From Flavobacteriaceae bacterium PS02337 (GTDB lineage Bacteria > Bacteroidota > Bacteroidia > Flavobacteriales > Flavobacteriaceae), in the NCBI GenBank assembly GCA_029959285.1, contig JASCOE010000001.1, positions 806,001 through 870,000 of the forward strand: a stretch of DNA of 64,000 nucleotides, read 5' to 3'. The position numbers were made by a program, and so were the translations under genes. This document shows positions 49,622 through 59,160 of the stretch, in pieces (position 1 is the stretch's first letter; each line of letters starts with the position of its first letter). Below the pieces are notes generated by a model that did not search any database, had not been told where the DNA came from, and worked only from the letters and a program-made list of their open reading frames with translations.

Positions 49622-51397
49622 ATGAGGCTGATCATCTCTTTTTTATTTTTATTGACACTTAATATCTCTGTGGCTCAAACAAAAAAGGAGTTTACCGAAC
49701 AAGAGTATCTAGAACTGCAGGATAAAATTCGTTTCAGCATGAATGGAAACTTTGATGAAGGTATTGCCTATGCGCTCGAGTTACAAAAATCTACAAATAA
49801 CGAACATTTAGCTTTTGCTTACGGTTCGGGATCCTATTTATATCAATTAAAAAACAATAGAACTAAATCTGATGAATGGTATTCTAAGGCATTAGCATAT
49901 TATAATAAACTTCCAGAATCGGTTCAAAAAATAAATCTTAGAGCTTACCTATATAATTATAGAGGTTTAATAGAATGGAAAAGACGAAATTTTAGTAATT
50001 CGTTGAGTAATTATCAAGAAGGAATTAAACTTTCTACCAAAACTAATGATGTTATTCAAATTGTAAAATTTAAAAGTAATATCGCTTTAGTCAACGAGGA
50101 AGTTGGTAATTATGAACTAGCTATTAGAAACCTCCGACAGAACAGCGAATTCTTAAGCAAGAATGAAAGTCTATACGATGCCGATCAATTTCAAAATAGT
50201 AAAAGTAACATTTATACAAATCTAGGAAATGTGTATGAAGGTTATTATATAAAAAATCGAAAGAAAACTATTTTACTAGATTCTGCAGAATACTTTTATA
50301 AAAGGGCAATTACATACTCTCAAAACTATATAGATAATAAAATGACGGCTACTCTTAGTCTAGGAAATATCTATTTGTTAAAAAAAGATTATAAAAACGC
50401 AGAGAAAACCTATTTTTATATTGCTTTGTATGCTAAACAAAACAATGATGAAGCTTATTACAGAATTGCAAATTATAATTTAGGAGATCTTTTTTATTCT
50501 CAAAAAAAATACGACAAAGCTTTAGTCTGCTTAAAAAAGGTAGATTCTTTATATACAAAGGGGAAAAAAGTAGATAATAGTTATTTCCAGTCCAATTATC
50601 TTCAGGCAAAAATTTACAACATAAAAAACGAGCCAGAACTAGCATTTAAACATTCTAAGATATATTTAGATTCTTATGAAAAATATGAAGGAGATCTTAG
50701 AGAAGAAGTTCTAGAAGTTAATTACAAACTTGGTACAGCAAATCTCTCCGATGAGATGTTAAGTATTCAAGAGAAATATAAATATGAGGTTTTGTGGAAT
50801 AAAGCCTTAAAAGTTTTCTATGTTATTTTGGTTGTCGGAATTGTGTTCTTCTTGATCAAAAATATTCGAGACAAAAATAAAGCACAGAAAAAAATGAATG
50901 CTTTAATTGAAGAATTTAAAGCTAATCTGGAGAAAAAAGAAATTGAAAAAGCCGAAATCGAAAAAACTATAGTAGAAGAACCAATATTTGTAGAAGTTCC
51001 AGAATTAGAAGATGTATTACTTAAAAAGGAAAATGCAAATCTTAGTATTGATGAAGCAAAAGAAAACAAGATTGTAGAAAAATTATTGGCATTAGAAGAG
51101 AAATTAGAATACTTAAATGCAGATTTTACTTTGTCTTATGTCGCTAAGAAAATTAAAACCAATACAACTTATTTATCTTATGTTGTAAATAAAAGATTTG
51201 GTAAATCTTTTGGAGAATATTCGAATGAGTTGAAAATTAATTATGTAATTAATCAAATGATTACCAATCATTTGTATCGAAAATATTCTACTCAGGCAAT
51301 TGCAGAAAGTGTTGGTTTTAAAAATGCAGTTTCATTTGCAAAATCGTTTCGCAAAAGAACTGGAGTGTCTCCAGCTCAATTTGCGAACAATATTTAG
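49622..51397 (+). CDS. Membrane-anchored TPR / AraC-type transcriptional regulator
   Basis: A 591-residue protein has a signal peptide or N-terminal anchor (residues 1-18, ending VAQ) and TPR-type helical repeats (about 30-380). One membrane helix lies at 398-415 (VFYVILVVGIVFFLIKNI), a Glu/Lys-rich coiled coil at about 418-450, and an AraC-type HTH domain at about 486-591 (LSYVAKKIKTNTTYLSYVVNKRFG and VGFKNAVSFAKSFRKRTGVSPAQF). The layout suggests periplasmic sensing with a cytoplasmic DNA-binding end. It converges on the tandem peptide genes, with only 10 bp between stops. Target genes are unknown. Confidence 0.9.
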   Translation: MRLIISFLFLLTLNISVAQTKKEFTEQEYLELQDKIRFSMNGNFDEGIAYALELQKSTNNEHLAFAYGSGSYLYQLKNNRTKSDEWYSKALAYYNKLPESVQKINLRAYLYNYRGLIEWKRRNFSNSLSNYQEGIKLSTKTNDVIQIVKFKSNIALVNEEVGNYELAIRNLRQNSEFLSKNESLYDADQFQNSKSNIYTNLGNVYEGYYIKNRKKTILLDSAEYFYKRAITYSQNYIDNKMTATLSLGNIYLLKKDYKNAEKTYFYIALYAKQNNDEAYYRIANYNLGDLFYSQKKYDKALVCLKKVDSLYTKGKKVDNSYFQSNYLQAKIYNIKNEPELAFKHSKIYLDSYEKYEGDLREEVLEVNYKLGTANLSDEMLSIQEKYKYEVLWNKALKVFYVILVVGIVFFLIKNIRDKNKAQKKMNALIEEFKANLEKKEIEKAEIEKTIVEEPIFVEVPELEDVLLKKENANLSIDEAKENKIVEKLLALEEKLEYLNADFTLSYVAKKIKTNTTYLSYVVNKRFGKSFGEYSNELKINYVINQMITNHLYRKYSTQAIAESVGFKNAVSFAKSFRKRTGVSPAQFANNI

Positions 51398-51407
51398 AGC
51401 TGAATTT

Positions 51408-51551
51408 TTAACCATTTCCACCACCTCCATTTTTTATTGGGTTGTTTTGCTCAATAGGCGGATCTCCATCGCCTCCGCGAACAACTTTCTGAGCGTCTTT
51501 ATTTAATTTTTCTACTTCGAAATCTGTTATTTTCAGTGCTTTATTTTTCAT
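51408..51551 (-). CDS. Double-glycine leader peptide 6 of the tandem array
   Basis: 47 residues. The leader begins MKNKALKITDFEVEKLNK and ends KVVRGG. The predicted mature part is DGDPPIEQNNPIK followed by NGGGGNG. No Cys, Ser or Thr occurs after the RGG. This is the promoter-distal copy if transcribed from the 52540 side. It differs from the others by EQ inserted before NNPIK. Confidence 0.8.
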   Translation of the reverse strand: MKNKALKITDFEVEKLNKDAQKVVRGGDGDPPIEQNNPIKNGGGGNG

Positions 51552-51605
51552 GACTTTATATTTTTTTGGATTGCTTTGAATTGATTTTTTGTATTGAGGA
51601 TAAAA

Positions 51606-51749
51606 TTAACCGTTTCCTCCACCGCCATTTTTGATCGGATTGTTTTGTTCTTCTTCTCCCGTTTCTCCACCGCCTCCGCGAACTACTTTTTGCGCTTCTT
51701 TATTTAATTTTTCTATTTCGAAATCTGTTATTTTCAATGAATTTTTCAT
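51606..51749 (-). CDS. Double-glycine leader peptide 5 of the tandem array
   Basis: 47 residues. Leader MKNSLKITDFEIEKLNKEAQ, then KVVRGG. The mature part is the most divergent: GGETGEEEQNNPIK, then NGGGGNG. It keeps the common C-terminal half but has an acidic N-terminal half instead of DGDPPVI. Confidence 0.8.
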   Translation of the reverse strand: MKNSLKITDFEIEKLNKEAQKVVRGGGGETGEEEQNNPIKNGGGGNG

Positions 51750-51807
51750 GACTTTATATTTTTATGGATTGCTTTAAATTGAATTTTTTCTAGTTTTAGA
51801 ATGAGAA

Positions 51808-51945
51808 TTAGCCATTTCCTCCGCCGCCATTTTTGATCGGATTGTTAATTACAGGCGGATCACCGTCACCACCGCGAACCGTTTTTTGCGCTTCTTTATT
51901 TAATTTTTCTATTTCGAAATCTGTTATTTTCAATGAATTTTTCAT
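51808..51945 (-). CDS. Double-glycine leader peptide 4 of the tandem array
   Basis: 45 residues. Leader MKNSLKITDFEIEKLNKEAQ, then KTVRGG. Mature part DGDPPVINNPIK, then NGGGGNG (19 residues). Protein sequence identical to copy 2 (52204-52341), with several synonymous base changes, suggesting selection on the peptide. Confidence 0.82.
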   Translation of the reverse strand: MKNSLKITDFEIEKLNKEAQKTVRGGDGDPPVINNPIKNGGGGNG

Positions 51946-52006
51946 GGCTTTATATTTTTATGGATTGCTTTAAATTGAATTTTTTTTTTGAATTTTAGAA
52001 TGAGAA

Positions 52007-52144
52007 TTAACCGTTTCCTCCGCCGCCATTTTTGATCGGATTGTTAATTACAGGCGGATCTCCGTCACCACCGCGAACAGTTTTTTGCGCTTCTTTATTT
52101 AATTTTTCTAATTCAAAATCTGTTATTTTCAATGAGTTTTTCAT
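52007..52144 (-). CDS. Double-glycine leader peptide 3 of the tandem array
   Basis: 45 residues. Differs from copies 2 and 4 only by I to L at residue 12 (DFELEKL). The mature part is the same DGDPPVINNPIK then NGGGGNG. Confidence 0.82.
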   Translation of the reverse strand: MKNSLKITDFELEKLNKEAQKTVRGGDGDPPVINNPIKNGGGGNG

Positions 52145-52203
52145 GACTTTATATTTTTATGGATTGTTTTAAATTGAATTTTTTTTGAATTTTAGAATGA
52201 GAA

Positions 52204-52341
52204 TTAGCCGTTTCCTCCGCCGCCATTTTTAATCGGATTGTTAATTACTGGCGGATCTCCGTCACCACCGCGAACCGTTTTTTGCGCTTCTTTATTTAAT
52301 TTTTCTATTTCGAAATCTGTTATTTTCAATGAGTTTTTCAT
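52204..52341 (-). CDS. Double-glycine leader peptide 2 of the tandem array
   Basis: 45 residues. Identical at protein level to copy 4. Leader positions relative to the cleavage site: G-1, G-2, V-4, K-6, Q-7, L-12, I-15, the usual pattern for C39 peptidase recognition. Confidence 0.82.
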   Translation of the reverse strand: MKNSLKITDFEIEKLNKEAQKTVRGGDGDPPVINNPIKNGGGGNG

Positions 52342-52399
52342 GACTTTATATTTTTATGGATTGCTTTAAATTGAATTTTTTCTAGTTTTAGGATGTGAA

Positions 52400-52540
52400 T
52401 TAGCCGTTTCCACCGCCGCCATTTTTGATCGGATTGTTAATTACAGGCGGATCTCCGTCACCACCGCGAACTGCTTTTTGAGCTTCTTTATTTAATTTTT
52501 CTAGTTCGAAATCTCCTAATGTGAATGTTTTATTTTTCAT
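52400..52540 (-). CDS. Double-glycine leader peptide 1 of the tandem array
   Basis: 46 residues, nearest the large intergenic gap and so probably first transcribed. The leader is the most distinct (MKNKTFTLGDFELEKLNKEA, then QKAVRGG), while the mature part is the same DGDPPVINNPIK then NGGGGNG. Confidence 0.82.
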   Translation of the reverse strand: MKNKTFTLGDFELEKLNKEAQKAVRGGDGDPPVINNPIKNGGGGNG

Positions 52541-53124
52541 TTTCTTTTCTTTTAAAATTATTTTTTAATACTATTAATCTTTCATAAATATTTTTGAGCA
52601 GTGTTAACAAATGCGACAAAATCGACGCTTTTAAACTTGGTTACACTAAAATTTTTTGGGTTTATTTGATTAAAAAAAGCAGTAAAATTGAACTTTCATT
52701 TATAAGTTAAATCTCACGATTAGATGTTTGATTTTGCTTTTTTTGAGAGGTAATTTTGTTTCAAATTAAGGGCCTTTTTTTATTACTTTTCGAGTTTTTA
52801 TGTACTCTTTTTGACCACTTTTTTTCTTTAAAATAATAGAGTTTTTATCCCTTGTTTTTCATGTTTTTTGATATTTGAATTATTACTTATCCAAAACTAG
52901 ATAAAAACATAAACCGTTAATCGAAAATCGCCTTTCTGAGCTTTTTAAAGAAAAAAATAACACATAAGTTATTGTTTTTCAATTATTTGTAACATGTAGT
53001 ATACTTGGTATAATTTATAAATTGTATGTGGTATAATTAATAAAATGTATGCATGTATGCGATTTTTATCAATAAAAACTCCAATCTTTGCATTGTAATC
53101 ATGAATTAAAAACGATTCAAAACG
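52541..53124. other. 584-bp divergent intergenic region of the peptide locus
   Basis: Very AT-rich and noncoding. It must hold promoters for the tandem peptides (minus) and the VKOR-containing cluster (plus). A 22-23-bp direct repeat lies at 53007-53051. I could not find a full TTTG/TAnnTTTG promoter on either strand, so these genes may need an alternative sigma factor or an activator. Confidence 0.6.
53007..53051 (+). promoter_or_regulatory. Direct repeat, two 22-bp copies 23 bp apart, upstream of the VKOR fusion gene
   Basis: Copy 1 (53007-53028) and copy 2 (53030-53051) both read GGTATAATT(T/A)ATAAA(T/A)TGTATG, differing at two positions. The 23-bp period is about two helical turns, placing both copies on one DNA face, 74-118 bp before the ATG. 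Fits an activator site. Binding protein unknown. Confidence 0.45.
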
Positions 53125-54681
53125 ATGTTAAAACTGGTCCAAAAATTTCTACAAATTAACAAATACTCAGACATCAAAAATGAGTTCAAGGATCTGTTTT
53201 TGTCTCATCCAAATTATCCGAGTTTATTTGCGATTACAGATTCGTTCGATTTGCTTTCTGTAGAGAATGCGGCAGTGAGAGTTTCGAAAGAACAAATTGT
53301 AGATTTGCCATCAAATTTTTTGGCCTATTTTAAAGATGAATTAATATTAGTTGAAAAAATAAAAAATGGTGTTCGCATCACGACAACAAAAAAAGGAAGT
53401 CAAAAATTATCTTATGATAAATTTCTTTTAGACTGGAATGGAGTAATTGTTGCGATCGAACCAAATAATGTAGTTGCCAGAGAAAATTTAAAAGTAGAGT
53501 ACAATTGGTTAAAATATTTTCTTCCTCTTGTTCTTTTAGTTGGATTATCTTTTTTCTATAACAGCTTCGATTTATTTAGTAGTGCATTTTTAGCTACTTC
53601 AATAATTGGTTTAGTGGTGAGCATATTTATTGTTCAACAAAAATGGGGTGTTAAAAACACAGTAATTTCAAAATTTTGTAATTTAAGTTCTAACTCTTCT
53701 TGTCATTCAGTAATAAGTTTCAACGACGATATTGCAAATAAGTGGTTAAGTTTTTCAGATTTGCCATTACTTTTCTTTAGTTCAAGCATTATTGCCATTT
53801 TAATACAGCCATTAAGTTCAGCAGTTTTTGTTGGTTTTTTAAGTCTGTTGGCAATTCCGATAGTAGTTTGTTCTATTTGGATTCAAAAATTTGAAATTCA
53901 AAAGTGGTGTGTAATGTGTTTAGCAGTTTCATTTATAATTCTAGCGCAAAGTATCGCTTGGTTTTCATCAGACCTTTTTACATTGAATTTTACAATAAAT
54001 GCAATTTTTCCTTATGTATTTTCTTTATTGCTTTTAATTCCAATTTGGGCAGCAGTAAAAGTGATGATTAAGAATATGTTAGATAATGAAAATTCGCTTA
54101 AAGAGCTTAAGAAATTTAAAAGAAACTATTCTCTATTAAACTTCTTATCTAAAAAAGTAAAATATACAAAAGGATTTGAAGATTTAAGAGGTTTAAATTT
54201 TGGAAATAAAAACGCAGGAGTTAAACTTTCAATTATAATTAGTCCAAGTTGCGGACATTGTTATAAAACTTTTCAAGAAGCTTTTGATTTAGTATTGAAG
54301 TTTCCAGACAAAATATATTTAAACGTTCTTTTTAATATTAATCCAGAAAACAACGACAATCCTTATAAAACAGTTGTAGAAAGATTGTTAACAATCAATA
54401 GAACAACTCCAGGGAAAACAGTTGAAGCGATTTCAGATTGGTACATTAAAAGAATGGTACATAAAAAATGGCTTAAAAAATGGCATGTTGATTCAGTAAG
54501 CATGATGATCAGCCAAGAAATTCAGAAACAATATGATTGGTGTTCGATGAACAATTTTAATTATACACCAGTTAAAATCGTAAACGAAAGATTGTTTCCA
54601 AACGAATATGAACTGAACGAATTGAAATATTTCTTAAATGATTTTGTAGAGGATGTTCAGGTTTTAGAGAGAATAGCATAA
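53125..54681 (+). CDS. C39-like / VKOR / thioredoxin fusion protein (disulfide-forming membrane enzyme)
   Basis: The 518-residue protein's residues 1-120 look like a C39 peptidase-type domain (SHPNYPSLFAITDSFDLLSVENAAVRV) without the catalytic Cys. A VKOR membrane domain (about 128-310) has a loop cysteine pair C185/C193 and the redox CxxC at C262-C265 (WCVMC). A thioredoxin domain follows with C376-C379 (SCGHC). VKOR-Trx fusions make disulfides in exported proteins. Just downstream lie three Cys-rich leader peptides, the likely substrates. The dead C39-like domain may bind their leaders (inference). Confidence 0.88.
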   Translation: MLKLVQKFLQINKYSDIKNEFKDLFLSHPNYPSLFAITDSFDLLSVENAAVRVSKEQIVDLPSNFLAYFKDELILVEKIKNGVRITTTKKGSQKLSYDKFLLDWNGVIVAIEPNNVVARENLKVEYNWLKYFLPLVLLVGLSFFYNSFDLFSSAFLATSIIGLVVSIFIVQQKWGVKNTVISKFCNLSSNSSCHSVISFNDDIANKWLSFSDLPLLFFSSSIIAILIQPLSSAVFVGFLSLLAIPIVVCSIWIQKFEIQKWCVMCLAVSFIILAQSIAWFSSDLFTLNFTINAIFPYVFSLLLLIPIWAAVKVMIKNMLDNENSLKELKKFKRNYSLLNFLSKKVKYTKGFEDLRGLNFGNKNAGVKLSIIISPSCGHCYKTFQEAFDLVLKFPDKIYLNVLFNINPENNDNPYKTVVERLLTINRTTPGKTVEAISDWYIKRMVHKKWLKKWHVDSVSMMISQEIQKQYDWCSMNNFNYTPVKIVNERLFPNEYELNELKYFLNDFVEDVQVLERIA

Positions 54682-54718: not shown

Positions 54719-54898
54719 ATGTTAAAGAATATTTTGAAGTTGAAAGGTGCAGTAGAATTAACTGCTAACGAGCAAAAAACAATAAACGGAGGAAATGCTC
54801 CGATTTGTGATGACGGATTTAAAGCTAAAAGATGCACAGAATTTGGAACAGTGCCAGCATACTGGAGCTGTGTGCCAAATTATGTTGGAAGCTGTTAA
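54719..54898 (+). CDS. Double-glycine leader peptide with four cysteines
   Basis: 59 residues, too short for routine gene calling. Leader MLKNILKLKGAVELTANEQK, then TINGG (Q-7, K-6, I-4, L-12). The mature part of 34 residues begins NAPICDDGFKAKRC and ends SCVPNYVGSC. Cysteines are at 30, 39, 51 and 59, enough for two disulfides. It lies 37 bp after the VKOR fusion gene, whose oxidase activity would suit it. Confidence 0.8.
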   Translation: MLKNILKLKGAVELTANEQKTINGGNAPICDDGFKAKRCTEFGTVPAYWSCVPNYVGSC

Positions 54899-54968: not shown

Positions 54969-55100
54969 ATGTTAGAAAAAATTTTAAAAAGCAAAGAGAC
55001 TAAAAAACTGTCTAAAAAAGAGCAGAAAAACATTTTAGGAGACGAAGCATCAGAACCAAATTGTTACAATGCTACAGCAGATAAATATTATGCTTGCTAA
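54969..55100 (+). CDS. Leader peptide with GD instead of GG and two cysteines
   Basis: 43 residues. Leader MLEKILKSKETKKLSKKEQK, then NILGD. It aligns with its neighbours at Q-7, K-6, I-4 and L-12 but has Asp at -1. Mature part of 18 residues, EASEPNCYNATADKYYAC, with two cysteines for one possible disulfide. The changed cleavage residue may slow or prevent processing. Confidence 0.7.
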   Translation: MLEKILKSKETKKLSKKEQKNILGDEASEPNCYNATADKYYAC

Positions 55101-55165
55101 TTTGAATATTTAAATAGTAACAGAGCCAAAAACTCTGTTACTATATTAAAAAAATGGTATTAGTT

Positions 55166-55357
55166 ATGTTGAAGAAAATTTTAAATCTTAACGGAGCTCA
55201 AAGCATACATAAAAATGAGCAGAAAACTATGAGAGGAGGAATTCCCGAATGCTGGGTTTATGCATTGCAAGCGGGTTGCATTTTAATACCACCAGGCGAA
55301 ACTTGTCCGATAAATACATCAGCGGGTATTTGTGATACAAGTCGTCTTTGTTGTTGA
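55166..55357 (+). CDS. Double-glycine leader peptide with six cysteines
   Basis: 63 residues from the start MLKKILNLNGAQ, chosen because it aligns with the other two leaders. An ATG four codons upstream (55154) is possible. Leader ends NEQKTMRGG (Q-7, K-6, M-4, I-12). The mature part begins IPECWVYALQAGC and ends SRLCC, with six cysteines for up to three disulfides. It resembles a defensin-like or knotted peptide in Cys number only. Confidence 0.8.
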   Translation: MLKKILNLNGAQSIHKNEQKTMRGGIPECWVYALQAGCILIPPGETCPINTSAGICDTSRLCC

Positions 55358-55675: not shown

Positions 55676-57868
55676 TTGAAAAAATTCGCGCATTACAGAC
55701 AAGCCGATCATAAAGATTGTGGACCTACATGTTTAAAAATTATTGCTAAATATTACGGTAAAACGATCAATATTCAGGAGTTGAGAGATTTTAGCGAAAC
55801 AACTCGTGAAGGAAGCAATTTGCTTTTTCTGAGTGATGCCGCAGAAAAAATCGGTTTCAGAACTTTAGGAGTAAAACTATCAGTATCCAGAATTGAAGAA
55901 GCGCCTCTTCCGTGTATTCTTCACTGGAATAAAGACCATTATGTGGTACTTTATAAAATAAAAAAAGGAAAATATTACATCTCCGATCCTGCTTTTGGAC
56001 TTCTAGAATATAATAAACAAGAATTTGTAAAATTTTGGATTGGCAATAATGCTGACGACGAAACAAAAGAAGGAATCGCTCTTTTGATTGAAGCAACGCC
56101 AAAATTCTTTCAATCAGATTTTGATAAAGAAGAAAATTCAGGTTTAGGATTTAGATTTCTTTCGCAGTATTTATTTCAATATAAATCATTTCTGGTTCAG
56201 CTCGCAATTGGACTTTTTGCCAGCAGTTTGCTAAACTTGATTTTTCCGTTTTTAACCCAAAGTATTGTTGACGTCGGGATTCAGAGTCAGAATATACATT
56301 TTATCTATTTAATTCTTTTTGCAATGCTTTTTATTTTTGCAGGAAGAACGGGTTTAGAATTAATTCGAAGCTGGATTTTACTTCATTTATCAACCAGAAT
56401 TAATATTTCTCTAATTTCAGATTTCTTTATAAAATTAATGAATCTGCCCATTTCCTTTTTCGATGTTAGAATGACAGGAGATATTATGCAACGAATTAAT
56501 GACCATCGGCGTATCGAAAAAATCCTGACAACATCATCTCTAAATGTCCTTTTTTCTGTAATTAATATGTTTGTAATGGGCGCGGTTTTGGCTTATTTCA
56601 ATCTGCAGATATTCTTCGTGTTTTTTGTTGGAAGTTTATTTTATTTTGGATGGATAACATTGTTTTTGAAAAGAAGGGAAGTTCTTGACTACAAGCGTTT
56701 TGCTGAGGTTTCTAACGAACAAAACAAAGTTATGGAACTCATAAATGGAATGCAGGAAATAAAGCTTCACAACGCAGAAAAACAAAAACGCTGGGGCTGG
56801 GAATATGTTCAGGCAAGACTTTTTAGAGTTTCCATAAAAGGCTTGATTCTAGAGCAATCGCAAACAATTGGTTCTTCGGTTATTAATGAATTAAAAAACA
56901 TTTTTATCATTTTGCTTTCGGCTAAATTGGTAATCGAAGGTTCAATAACGCTGGGAATGATGTTGGCGATAAGTGCCATTGTGGGAAGTTTAAACGGACC
57001 AATTACGCAGTTAATAGAATTTGTGAGAGAATTGCAAGATGCCAGAATTTCACTTGCCAGATTATCTGAAATTCATGAAAAAGAAGATGAATTGCAGCAA
57101 GAAAGTCATCAGACAAATGAGATTCCGCATGATGTTGATATTGAAGTTAAAAATTTATCTTATCGTTATTTAGGATCAGATGTTCCAGTTTTAGACAATC
57201 TGAGTTTGGTAATTCCTGCTAATAAAGTAACCGCAATTGTTGGCGTCAGCGGAAGCGGAAAAACAACTCTGATGAAACTGCTTTTAAAGTTTTATGAACC
57301 TGAAAAAGGAGAAGTTCTAATTGGTAATTCGCAACTCAAAAATATTTCGCAGAAAGCGTGGAGATCAAATATCGGAGCAGTAATGCAAGAAGGATTTATT
57401 TTTAGCGATACAATTGCAAATAATATCGCTTTTGGAGCAGATAGAATTGACAAAGAAAGACTGGTTTATGCGGCAGATGTGGCGAATATAAAAGAATATA
57501 TTGGCGGTTTGCCTCTAGGATATAATACAAAAATCGGCGCAGAAGGTTTGGGAATGAGCACGGGACAAAAACAGCGTTTGCTTATTGCAAGAGCAGTTTA
57601 TAAAAACCCAGAAATCTTGTTTTTTGATGAAGCAACTTCTGCTTTAGATGCCAATAACGAGAAAGAAATAATGAGAAAATTAGATATCTTTTTTAAAGAC
57701 AAAACCGTCGTTGTCATCGCGCATAGATTGAGTACAGTTATGAATGCCGATCAGATTGTAGTTTTAGATAAAGGAAAAATTATCGAAATTGGAAGCCATT
57801 CTGCATTAGTTGAACAAAAAGGAAATTATTTTGAATTGGTTAGAAATCAATTGCAATTAGGAAATTAA
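55676..57868 (+). CDS. Peptidase C39-containing ABC exporter (PCAT)
   Basis: This 730-residue inner-membrane protein cleaves double-glycine leaders and exports the product. The N-terminal C39 peptidase has C15 (DCGPTC), H88 (DHYVVLY) and D104 (SDPAFG). Six membrane helices lie at about 160-450. The ATPase has Walker A (GVSGSGKTT, about 523-531), signature MSTGQKQR (about 626) and Walker B LFFDEATSA (about 647). The start is TTG. The following ATG is internal to the C39 fold. Together with the leader peptides upstream and the adaptor downstream it forms the core of the export system. Confidence 0.95.
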   Translation: MKKFAHYRQADHKDCGPTCLKIIAKYYGKTINIQELRDFSETTREGSNLLFLSDAAEKIGFRTLGVKLSVSRIEEAPLPCILHWNKDHYVVLYKIKKGKYYISDPAFGLLEYNKQEFVKFWIGNNADDETKEGIALLIEATPKFFQSDFDKEENSGLGFRFLSQYLFQYKSFLVQLAIGLFASSLLNLIFPFLTQSIVDVGIQSQNIHFIYLILFAMLFIFAGRTGLELIRSWILLHLSTRINISLISDFFIKLMNLPISFFDVRMTGDIMQRINDHRRIEKILTTSSLNVLFSVINMFVMGAVLAYFNLQIFFVFFVGSLFYFGWITLFLKRREVLDYKRFAEVSNEQNKVMELINGMQEIKLHNAEKQKRWGWEYVQARLFRVSIKGLILEQSQTIGSSVINELKNIFIILLSAKLVIEGSITLGMMLAISAIVGSLNGPITQLIEFVRELQDARISLARLSEIHEKEDELQQESHQTNEIPHDVDIEVKNLSYRYLGSDVPVLDNLSLVIPANKVTAIVGVSGSGKTTLMKLLLKFYEPEKGEVLIGNSQLKNISQKAWRSNIGAVMQEGFIFSDTIANNIAFGADRIDKERLVYAADVANIKEYIGGLPLGYNTKIGAEGLGMSTGQKQRLLIARAVYKNPEILFFDEATSALDANNEKEIMRKLDIFFKDKTVVVIAHRLSTVMNADQIVVLDKGKIIEIGSHSALVEQKGNYFELVRNQLQLGN

Positions 57869-57870
57869 TC

Positions 57871-59160
57871 ATGAACGAAGATACATTTGAATTAAGAAGC
57901 GAAGAAGTTCAGGACATTCTGACCAAAGTGCCTCATTGGATGATTCGATGGGGAACAGTCTTGATATTCGGCATTATTATTATGCTGTTTTTTGTTTCCT
58001 GGTTTGTAAAATACCCAGATGTTGTGAGAACAGAAATTGTAATTACGACAAATATTCCGCCAGAGAAAATCGTTTCAAAATCTTCTGGTAGAATTGAAGC
58101 TATTTTGGTAAAAGATAAAATGCCAGTAGCGAAAAACAGTACATTGGCAATTATCGAAAATACAGCCAATTATAAAGATGTTTTTCTATTGAAAAGTATT
58201 GTGGATAGTTACGATATCAATAATTCGAAAAAGGCTTTTCCTTTTGCTTCGCTAAAAAATACGCAATTAGGAGAAATTGAAAGCGCTTATGCTGTTTTTC
58301 AAAAAGATTATCAAGCGCAGCAATTGAATGAAAGTTTGCATCCTTTTGAAATTGAAAGCAGAGCACAAAGTTCTGAAAAAATTCAGCTTAAAGAACGATT
58401 AGACATTCTGCAGCAGCAAAAAGTGCTTAACGAAAGTGAATTGGAATTGCAGAAAAATGAAATTGCCCGTTTTGAAACGCTTTTTAATAAAGGAATCATT
58501 TCCGCGCAAGAAATGGAAGCGAAGAAGCTAGGCTATTTACAAGCTATGAAGAGTTATAAAGGGCTTTTAACTTCAATTTCGCAATTAAGGTCCTCTTTAA
58601 TTGATAATACAAAATCAAGTCAAAGTTCGCAGATAAACAGCACAAAAGAAGAAGTCAATTTAGGTCGAAGCATGGCGCAGTCTTTTTATCAATTAAAAAA
58701 AGTGATAAAAGATTGGGAGCTGGCTTATACTTTAAAATCTTCTGTCAGCGGAGTTGTCACTTTTTTGCAAGTTTGGAATACAAATCAGACCATAAATGTT
58801 GGCGATAATGTTTTTTCAATCATTCCAGACGCTAAAAACACTTTTATCGGAAAAGTAAAAGCTCCAGCGTTAAATTCAGGAAAAATAAAAGTTGGGCAAC
58901 GAGTAAATATTCGTCTGGCGAATTATCCTGATAGAGAATTTGGCGTGTTGAAAGGAGAAATTAAAAACATTTCTTTAGTTCCAGATAAAGACGGAAATCT
59001 ACTGTTGGATGTTGCTCTCCCAAACGGATTAAAAACTTCTTACGATAAACAAATTGTTTTTCAGCAAGAAATGAAGGGAAGCGCAGAAATTGTAACCGAA
59101 GATTTGCGTTTGATTGAACGAATTTTATATCAGTTTAAGAATATTTTTGAGCAAGTTTAG
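57871..59160 (+). CDS. HlyD-family secretion adaptor (membrane fusion protein)
   Basis: A 429-residue adaptor has one N-terminal membrane helix (about 28-48), a beta/lipoyl segment (SSGRIEAILVKDKMPVAKNS), a long coiled-coil hairpin (about 140-290), and a second beta-barrel half (SSVSGVVTFLQVW, then GKVKAPALNSGKIKVGQRVNI). It starts 2 bp after the exporter stop. It should bridge the ABC exporter to an outer-membrane channel. No TolC gene lies in this locus, so a TolC from elsewhere must serve. Confidence 0.92.
   Translation: MNEDTFELRSEEVQDILTKVPHWMIRWGTVLIFGIIIMLFFVSWFVKYPDVVRTEIVITTNIPPEKIVSKSSGRIEAILVKDKMPVAKNSTLAIIENTANYKDVFLLKSIVDSYDINNSKKAFPFASLKNTQLGEIESAYAVFQKDYQAQQLNESLHPFEIESRAQSSEKIQLKERLDILQQQKVLNESELELQKNEIARFETLFNKGIISAQEMEAKKLGYLQAMKSYKGLLTSISQLRSSLIDNTKSSQSSQINSTKEEVNLGRSMAQSFYQLKKVIKDWELAYTLKSSVSGVVTFLQVWNTNQTINVGDNVFSIIPDAKNTFIGKVKAPALNSGKIKVGQRVNIRLANYPDREFGVLKGEIKNISLVPDKDGNLLLDVALPNGLKTSYDKQIVFQQEMKGSAEIVTEDLRLIERILYQFKNIFEQV

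Follow-up and report, generated by a model that had tools for sequence, protein, structure and literature searches.

Peptide pheromone signalling is textbook Gram-positive biology, and Dirix 2004 is said to have screened Gram-negatives in silico for double-glycine (GG) peptides. Where receptors of the RRNPPA family carry a DNA-binding domain, it is an N-terminal XRE-type helix-turn-helix (HTH). These receptors (Rap, NprR and PlcR of the Bacillota) are described as cytoplasmic and as responding to re-imported peptides (PMC9765709, PMC4147580). In the streptococcal blp system, according to the accounts in PMC4860687 and PMC5295010, the GG-leader peptide BlpC is exported by BlpAB and sensed by BlpH/BlpR, GG-leader bacteriocins are activated via direct-repeat promoter boxes, and BlpC and BlpH alleles co-occur non-randomly, with an association that scales with proximity. 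A survey of Bacteroidales clusters for ribosomally synthesized and post-translationally modified peptides (RiPPs) describes two, BGC2 and BGC9, with GG-type leaders, a C39 peptidase ABC exporter (PCAT) and, close by, a gene with a TPR domain; it mentions a pheromone-linked regulatory role for this gene (PMC10352776). Here we analyse an array of six tandem GG peptide genes in a stretch of 64,000 nucleotides (the window) from Flavobacteriaceae bacterium PS02337 (assembly GCA_029959285.1, contig JASCOE010000001.1, positions 806,001-870,000 of the forward strand), together with the gene that converges on it, which we call REC, and a divergent set of export and Cys-peptide genes.

This array-receptor-export block suggests an uncharacterised chemical signalling circuit. 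With moderate confidence, we propose that the array peptides are unmodified double-glycine pheromones and that REC, as a periplasmic TPR receptor, switches on both the array and the exporter/Cys-peptide genes. On a fuller proposal our judgement is evenly balanced: that this is a new Gram-negative form of peptide quorum sensing, with tandem unmodified GG pheromones, a transmembrane TPR-AraC receptor sensing them in the periplasm, and one dedicated operator governing the array together with an operon for disulfide-peptide export, in which receptor and pheromone diversify together across Flavobacterium and sensor-only copies may act as decoys. A preliminary description of the array, made from the sequence alone, left out the adjacent TPR-transmembrane-HTH regulator, the divergent export and Cys-peptide genes and the operator, which are the context that gives the array meaning. 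Among the best-ranked papers of the open-access literature, we found no description of the peptide family, the receptor or the circuit, and no report of a peptide quorum-sensing circuit in Bacteroidota.

The array occupies positions 51408-52540 of the window, its genes lying head to tail on the minus strand, each 45-47 codons long and spaced 196-199 bp from start to start. Each was called as an open reading frame (ORF):

52400-52540, minus strand: peptide gene 1, promoter-proximal; positive with the family hidden Markov model (HMM)
52204-52341, minus strand: peptide gene 2, encoding the same protein as gene 4
52007-52144, minus strand: peptide gene 3
51808-51945, minus strand: peptide gene 4
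51606-51749, minus strand: peptide gene 5, with Thr in its core
51408-51551, minus strand: peptide gene 6, distal

This arrangement agrees with the preliminary description, as do the leaders, which in all six precursors end in RGG with Q-7, K-6 and L-12, and the cores of 19-21 residues with the C-terminal NNPIKNGGGGNG common to 6/6. The genes at 51808 and 52204 also encode one protein, as it had stated, from DNA that differs at five synonymous sites. Its further claim that the cores lack Cys, Ser and Thr fails, because one of the six, GGETGEEEQNNPIKNGGGGNG of the 51606-51749 copy, contains Thr; Cys is present in 0/6. The absence of these residues is not a defining feature of the peptide family either, since 205/233 family cores hold Ser or Thr and 5/233 hold Cys. 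A pattern of our own, xPx[KRNQ] together with a Gly-rich stretch, fits 221/233 family cores. The six window genes are the only copies found in their own genome (5.70 Mb), a profile search included. Four of the six copies were scanned against known peptide families, and all fell below the curated NCBIfam/Pfam cut-offs; the best NCBIfam scores, with the cut-offs in bits, were NF033471 at 16.2 (23), NF038004 at 13.3 (45), NF038153 at 12.7 (22) and NF047798 at 10.5 (23.5).

Two peculiarities were seen in relatives. The first precursor of locus L203 carries IDPSKGDGKGNT twice inside its core, which suggests that the IDPSKGDGKGNT stretch is the active unit. The promoter-proximal copy extends beyond the Gly-rich tail at its C-terminus in L159-L161, L165-L167, L170 and L196, where trimming or a different role is possible.

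At E 1e-3, a window peptide was matched in 40/250 genomes of the genus, its own included, and a search with the receptor added two more, so that the array is more than a chance arrangement. REC was matched at E 1e-30 in 60/250 of these genomes, with at least 62% identity in 42 of the 60. The 42 close-REC genomes are the 40 with peptide matches plus G015 and G042, which also have arrays, of six and eight copies; the array is thus present in 42/42, with array and REC on separate contigs in G202, where the array lies at a contig end. The gene order was compared over stretches of up to 20 kb from 39 relatives. It runs from acyl-CoA dehydrogenase (ACAD) through REC and the array facing REC to a divergently oriented gene for a VKOR/thioredoxin-like protein, behind which Cys-containing GG peptides, a C39-ABC exporter and HlyD usually come. 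The array is bracketed by REC and VKOR in 38/39 relatives, the exception being L069, whose contig stops short of REC; in L065 and L072 the exporter falls outside the stretch viewed.

A larger set of 81 loci, made of the window and the best 80 of 204 relatives that a contig scan with a REC alignment gave, overlaps with the 250 genomes; these 80 are labelled Flavobacterium, Flavobacteriaceae or [Flexibacter]. A peptide HMM, built from the window and from genus genomes that partly overlap the 81 loci tested, was run on the interval from REC to VKOR, with ORFs taken from either strand; in four loci with no VKOR in view, the interval reached to the contig end. Family peptides adjoin REC in 80/81 loci, L157 ending 108 bp after REC, and 234/234 family peptide ORFs face REC. 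A locus carries 1-7 copies, with 8 in L119. Beyond these loci, 20 distant REC copies (37-52% identity) were inspected by eye, and a convergent leader-like small ORF was found at 18/20, the exceptions being L125 and L132. This set leaves aside the fragmentary REC matches of G149 and G166 and further places in G061 and G186. Each of the 18 has one such peptide, L131 two; the leader ends in a literal GG in 12/18, the others having GK, GS, AG, CG or GM. Two complete REC-peptide-VKOR modules each are present in L122 and L137. Because leader-like peptides face most distant REC copies, the REC-peptide pairing is wider, and probably older, than the tandem array. Over 299 genomes at family level, the peptide profile matched in ten beyond its own, all weakly (E 8e-5 to 0.008); as evidence of spread outside the genus these matches were rejected, being mostly Cys-containing GG peptides with likeness in the leader only.

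The proposed receptor and its regions are as follows:

49622-51397, plus strand: REC, Pfam HTH_18 and TPR above cut-off; convergent with the array
49679-50701, plus strand: TPR sensor region of REC, residues 20-360, fast-evolving (from distances and the model)
50810-50866, plus strand: predicted transmembrane helix, about residues 397-415 (from sequence), within a long model helix of residues 375-442
51122-51394, plus strand: DNA-binding region of REC, residues 501-591, near-invariant (mean amino acid distance 0.035)

The HTH_18 domain, of AraC type, is C-terminal (residues 508-589, Pfam). A domain scan that found TPR and HTH_18 gave no match to a kinase domain. From its signal-like N-terminus and single hydrophobic helix, with the topology assigned by eye, REC is predicted to be a membrane-anchored, periplasmic TPR sensor. 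In a structure comparison of Foldseek-ranked folds, the TPR part of the REC AlphaFold model (pLDDT 79) was closest to peptide-binding TPRs, including Rap and NprR/NprX.

Seven extra REC copies lacking the HTH were observed in L209-L212, one or two in each (for example at 11805-14473 of L210); they stop just past the transmembrane helix, with open frames of 422-450 residues, and are possible decoy receptors. L213 and L215 carry two full-length RECs each. Eight other proteins of its own genome match REC with an E-value of at most 1e-3; two are long, TPR-HTH-like and 26% identical.

The variation of cores and flanking genes was compared in 65/81 loci, 16 having been dropped for a missing or cut gene, with REC residues 20-395 as the tested sensor segment. 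Mean amino acid distances were 0.375 for the REC sensor, 0.035 for the REC HTH, 0.219 for VKOR, 0.099 for the exporter, 0.131 for HlyD and 0.021 for ACAD. With exporter, HlyD and ACAD distances controlled, the partial Mantel r of the cores is 0.352 with the REC sensor (p 0.001), more than species relatedness would give, and 0.302 with the REC linker; VKOR, on the opposite flank, shows no link (partial r 0.047, p 0.26). Against the exporter, with HlyD and ACAD controlled, the partial r is -0.128. For the leaders, the correlations are 0.154 with the sensor, 0.187 with the exporter, 0.208 with HlyD and 0.289 with ACAD. As a control for linkage, third-codon differences were taken as synonymous distances. 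Cores show no link to synonymous sites in REC 501-591, the part adjoining the array (0.075, p 0.117), or in VKOR 1-130 (-0.060), and the core-sensor link persists at 0.239 (p 0.001) with eight synonymous distances controlled, the REC segments and VKOR 1-130 among them. Under cluster-restricted permutation, the core-sensor correlation was always the strongest (0.56-0.70). We regard this covariation as good but not conclusive evidence for co-evolution of ligand and receptor.

Between the array and VKOR lies a conserved candidate operator, flanked by two divergent promoter boxes:

53009-53051, plus strand: operator, two copies of TATAATTNATAAAWTGTATG (53009-53028 and 53032-53051) with a 23-bp period
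52892-52899, minus strand: -7 box of the array promoter, TAGTTTTG, of TAnnTTTG type, at near-fixed spacing to the operator
53083-53090, plus strand: -7 box of the VKOR promoter, AATCTTTG, assigned from its spacing to the VKOR start

The 19-bp operator core ATAATTTATAAATTGTATG occurs exactly, and exactly once, in 77/77 array-VKOR intergenic regions, the window included; it lies 103-115 bp upstream of the VKOR start, with a second near-copy 23 bp further. Searched with up to 3 mismatches, the 40-bp operator has one site in its own genome and one in each of 42/250 genus genomes, with none in the other 208. A comparison of the lists showed these to be the same 42 as the close-REC genomes. The reversed pattern gave no match in the 250 genomes. 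Boxes of the form WAnnTTTG or TAnnTTTG are, we assume, the known Bacteroidota promoter type. The 77 loci have 76 WAnnTTTG boxes at 40-44 bp ahead of VKOR; in 75/77, a TAnnTTTG box oriented towards the array stands 125-129 bp from the operator. The distance from this box to the array start is 28-37 nt in 45 loci and 179-536 nt in 30 (359 in the window, where an array transcript with some 350 nt of 5' leader, 52541-52891, is predicted). Most of the 75 loci have a further conserved element ahead of the array -7 box, ATTTTCGATTAACGGTTT at 52911-52928 (minus strand) in the window, which is possibly the site of a second regulator. Upstream regions of 18 distant copies were compared with 3600 dinucleotide shuffles. 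A tandem pair fitting the window half-site exceeds every shuffle in 14 of the 18; two more have a pair that is rare by this measure (0.1%), and those of L125 and L126 do not rise above chance. AraC-type proteins bind direct repeats, and REC would be the protein that binds the 23-bp repeat operator.

The preliminary description had named dN/dS near 1 between copies, or the same repeats broken by stops in related strains, as findings that would speak against the array. The four identical 19-residue window cores differ at 18 nucleotide positions summed over 6 pairs, all 18 synonymous, and the remaining 9 pairs, of unequal core length, show 45 differences over the last 12 codons, again all synonymous (45). 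The count of zero nonsynonymous changes therefore covers full cores for 6/15 pairs only and the last 12 codons for the rest; left out of it are the N-terminal core parts of the 51606 and 51408 copies, which differ in protein sequence. With a dN/dS of 0.24 for the window leaders and synonymous changes only in the compared core codons, the array is not refuted. Across the 81 loci, comparisons between copies of one genome (323 pairs, not independent of each other) give a dN/dS of 0.26 in the leaders and 0.46 in the cores. When frames were read through stops, 238 matches resulted, one of them, in L214, a broken fragment; an X is present in 4/238, of which two are the terminal stop, one an assembly N and one the L214 fragment.

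On the other side of the operator, the window encodes export and candidate cargo genes:

53125-54681, plus strand: VKOR/thioredoxin-like protein with an N-terminal C39-like domain (domain scan)
54719-54898, plus strand: Cys-containing GG peptide precursor, proposed cargo (ORF)
54969-55100, plus strand: precursor of a Cys-containing peptide, GD in place of the usual GG, proposed cargo (NF047798, below cut-off)
55154-55357, plus strand: conserved GGIPECW...CC peptide precursor, proposed cargo (pattern conservation)
55676-57868, plus strand: C39 peptidase ABC exporter (PCAT), TTG start (PF03412 at 117.6 bits; ABC_tran)
57871-59160, plus strand: HlyD-type periplasmic adaptor (TIGR01843 at E 8e-24, below the curated cut-off)

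The C39-like domain of the VKOR protein matches profile positions 45/46-132 only, the first 44 being unmatched; the domain is possibly leader-binding and non-proteolytic, and the protein may oxidise Cys peptides. A Cys-rich GGIPxCW...CC peptide (our own pattern) is present in 50/73 loci and is strongly conserved, unlike the variable array cores. The exporter start codon is TTG in 37 of the 38 loci viewed, GTG in one and never ATG. A second C39-ABC exporter locus of the genome (G000:C22, L227) was rejected as a home of the peptide family: neither REC nor VKOR was matched there at E 1e-5, and its 20 kb contained no peptide fitting our GG pattern.

From this layout we infer a course of events, in operon structure, expression, export route, binding, direction of regulation and action between cells alike. 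One promoter would yield six precursors, cut after GG and exported by a C39-ABC exporter, which from the leaders and the synteny is most likely the one 3 kb away with HlyD. The mature Asp/Pro/Gly-rich peptide of 19-21 residues, apparently unmodified, would bind the periplasmic TPR domain of REC, whose cytoplasmic AraC-type domain would then bind at the tandem 23-bp operator, in the gap between the divergent promoters. Occupancy would raise expression of the array, as positive feedback, and of VKOR, the Cys peptides, the exporter and HlyD, with the disulfide-type Cys peptides as effector cargo. Several gene copies with one common core tail may serve a higher signal dose, and joint change of core and sensor between species may set up species-specific 'pherotypes'. 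For multiple pheromone units, Rap-Phr propeptides, which contain several, are a precedent (PMC11343458).

Several observations count against this scheme. A secreted peptide would have to re-cross the outer membrane to reach the REC sensor. The exporter is not always beside VKOR, lying on the far side in L049 and behind inserts in L043. With the other two genes as controls, cores also show a correlation with HlyD (partial r 0.221, p 0.001) and a weak one with ACAD (0.140, p 0.020), and Mantel p-values, here as for the sensor, are lenient for related sequences. The correlation with the REC HTH is borderline (0.128, p 0.051), falling to -0.034 with the sensor controlled. Some local co-inheritance exists, because cores co-vary with synonymous sites of REC 396-500 (0.274) and 200-395 (0.139), and cluster-restricted permutation leaves VKOR (0.31-0.60), HlyD, the exporter and ACAD significant too. 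LGN scores above Rap and NprR against the REC TPR model, and a TPR fold alone shows no function. Positions of the TPR groove, by our own assignment, are no more variable than the rest (p 0.22), contrary to expectation, and are only weakly enriched for association with the cores (p 0.015, one-sided, uncorrected). In the 299 family-level genomes, REC was matched at E 1e-40 in its own alone; since only top candidates per genome were scored, remote versions may exist outside the genus.

An alternative that dispenses with quorum sensing is periplasmic self-monitoring, in which REC would read the peptides in the producer's own periplasm as a measure of exporter activity or envelope state. The predicted periplasmic position of the sensor suits this idea, the genomic evidence for receptor-ligand pairing fits it equally well, and the gene lists of the block, in which no search aimed at one was made, gave no sign of an outer-membrane importer. 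A pure flux sensor, however, needs no specificity, and cores are more alike within a genome (mean distance 0.389) than between genomes (0.706), as would be the case for species-specific signals. We consider self-monitoring unlikely.

We think it distinctly unlikely that the array peptides are antimicrobials, that is, unmodified class II-like bacteriocins, with REC responding to something else and the covariation reflecting co-inheritance. A GG leader with a C39 exporter is a common bacteriocin layout, and some co-inheritance is indeed present; yet the window cores are short and rich in Gly, Asn, Asp and Pro, with no hydrophobic helix and no Cys, and it is the sensor that they co-vary with, the gene on the opposite flank showing no such link. 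Leader-like peptides facing 18/20 distant REC copies likewise speak against this reading. In the gene lists of the block, no gene of immunity type stood out with the array, although none was searched for and immunity proteins are small and poorly conserved.

That the peptides are precursors of modified RiPPs, with an enzyme encoded elsewhere in the genome, appears very improbable. The preliminary description had reported no modification enzyme in the window, which holds for radical-SAM and YcaO: the genome has 17 radical-SAM matches that could supply such an enzyme, 0/17 of them in the window, and no YcaO. No conserved modification enzyme turned up in the gene lists of the syntenic block, in which LanB, LanM and ATP-grasp were not searched for, and the VKOR/thioredoxin protein suits Cys peptides, unlike the six window cores. 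The earlier view of an exported, apparently unmodified peptide thus keeps the support of the GG leader, the C39-ABC exporter and HlyD in the block and the radical-SAM and YcaO results, and loses its argument from Ser and Thr. Finally, although tandem repeats can be neutral, a non-functional repeat or annotation artefact is scarcely credible for an array whose compared core codons change only synonymously and which is kept in 42/250 genus genomes at near-fixed promoter spacing.

If the pheromone circuit is real, it would be a complete candidate circuit of signal, exporter, receptor, operator and targets in the genus of F. johnsoniae, which is genetically tractable; strain CI04 of that species (L197) has the peptide family. 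Specificity could then be decoded from dozens of natural signal-receptor pairs, and other Bacteroidota could be searched for the receptor architecture, in which a periplasmic TPR is connected across the membrane with an AraC-type HTH.

Among known peptide families, NF047798 (leader_Chryseo) and PF14406 (Bacteroid_pep) have the general GG leader shape in common with the array, which differs in its ...DF leader and its P.K/G-rich core. The nearest published case is the Bacteroidales RiPP survey with TPR genes beside two clusters (PMC10352776). As presented there, BGC2 carries a radical-SAM and BGC9 a LanM, unlike the array locus, and the account of the two clusters gives no tandem Cys-free array, TPR-transmembrane-HTH receptor pairing or operator. 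With RRNPPA receptors, the REC model shares a TPR peptide-binding fold, but REC is predicted to be anchored in the membrane with its TPR on the periplasmic side, and its HTH is C-terminal and of AraC type. The likeness to blp, as that system is described in the sources cited above, extends to a GG-leader signal, an ABC exporter with an accessory protein, a receptor at the same locus, co-occurrence of signal and receptor, a direct-repeat operator and GG-leader bacteriocin-like targets; the proximity-scaled association of blp alleles carries the same caveat as the core-sensor link here. Set against this, blp uses a histidine kinase and a response regulator where this locus has one membrane protein with TPR and AraC-type HTH, and a single blpC per genome where a Gram-negative genus has 1-7 signal genes per locus (8 in L119). 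By analogy, the proposed circuit would work like a peptide-pheromone bacteriocin system, and, because each family fails a defining feature here, it is a member of neither the blp nor the RRNPPA family.

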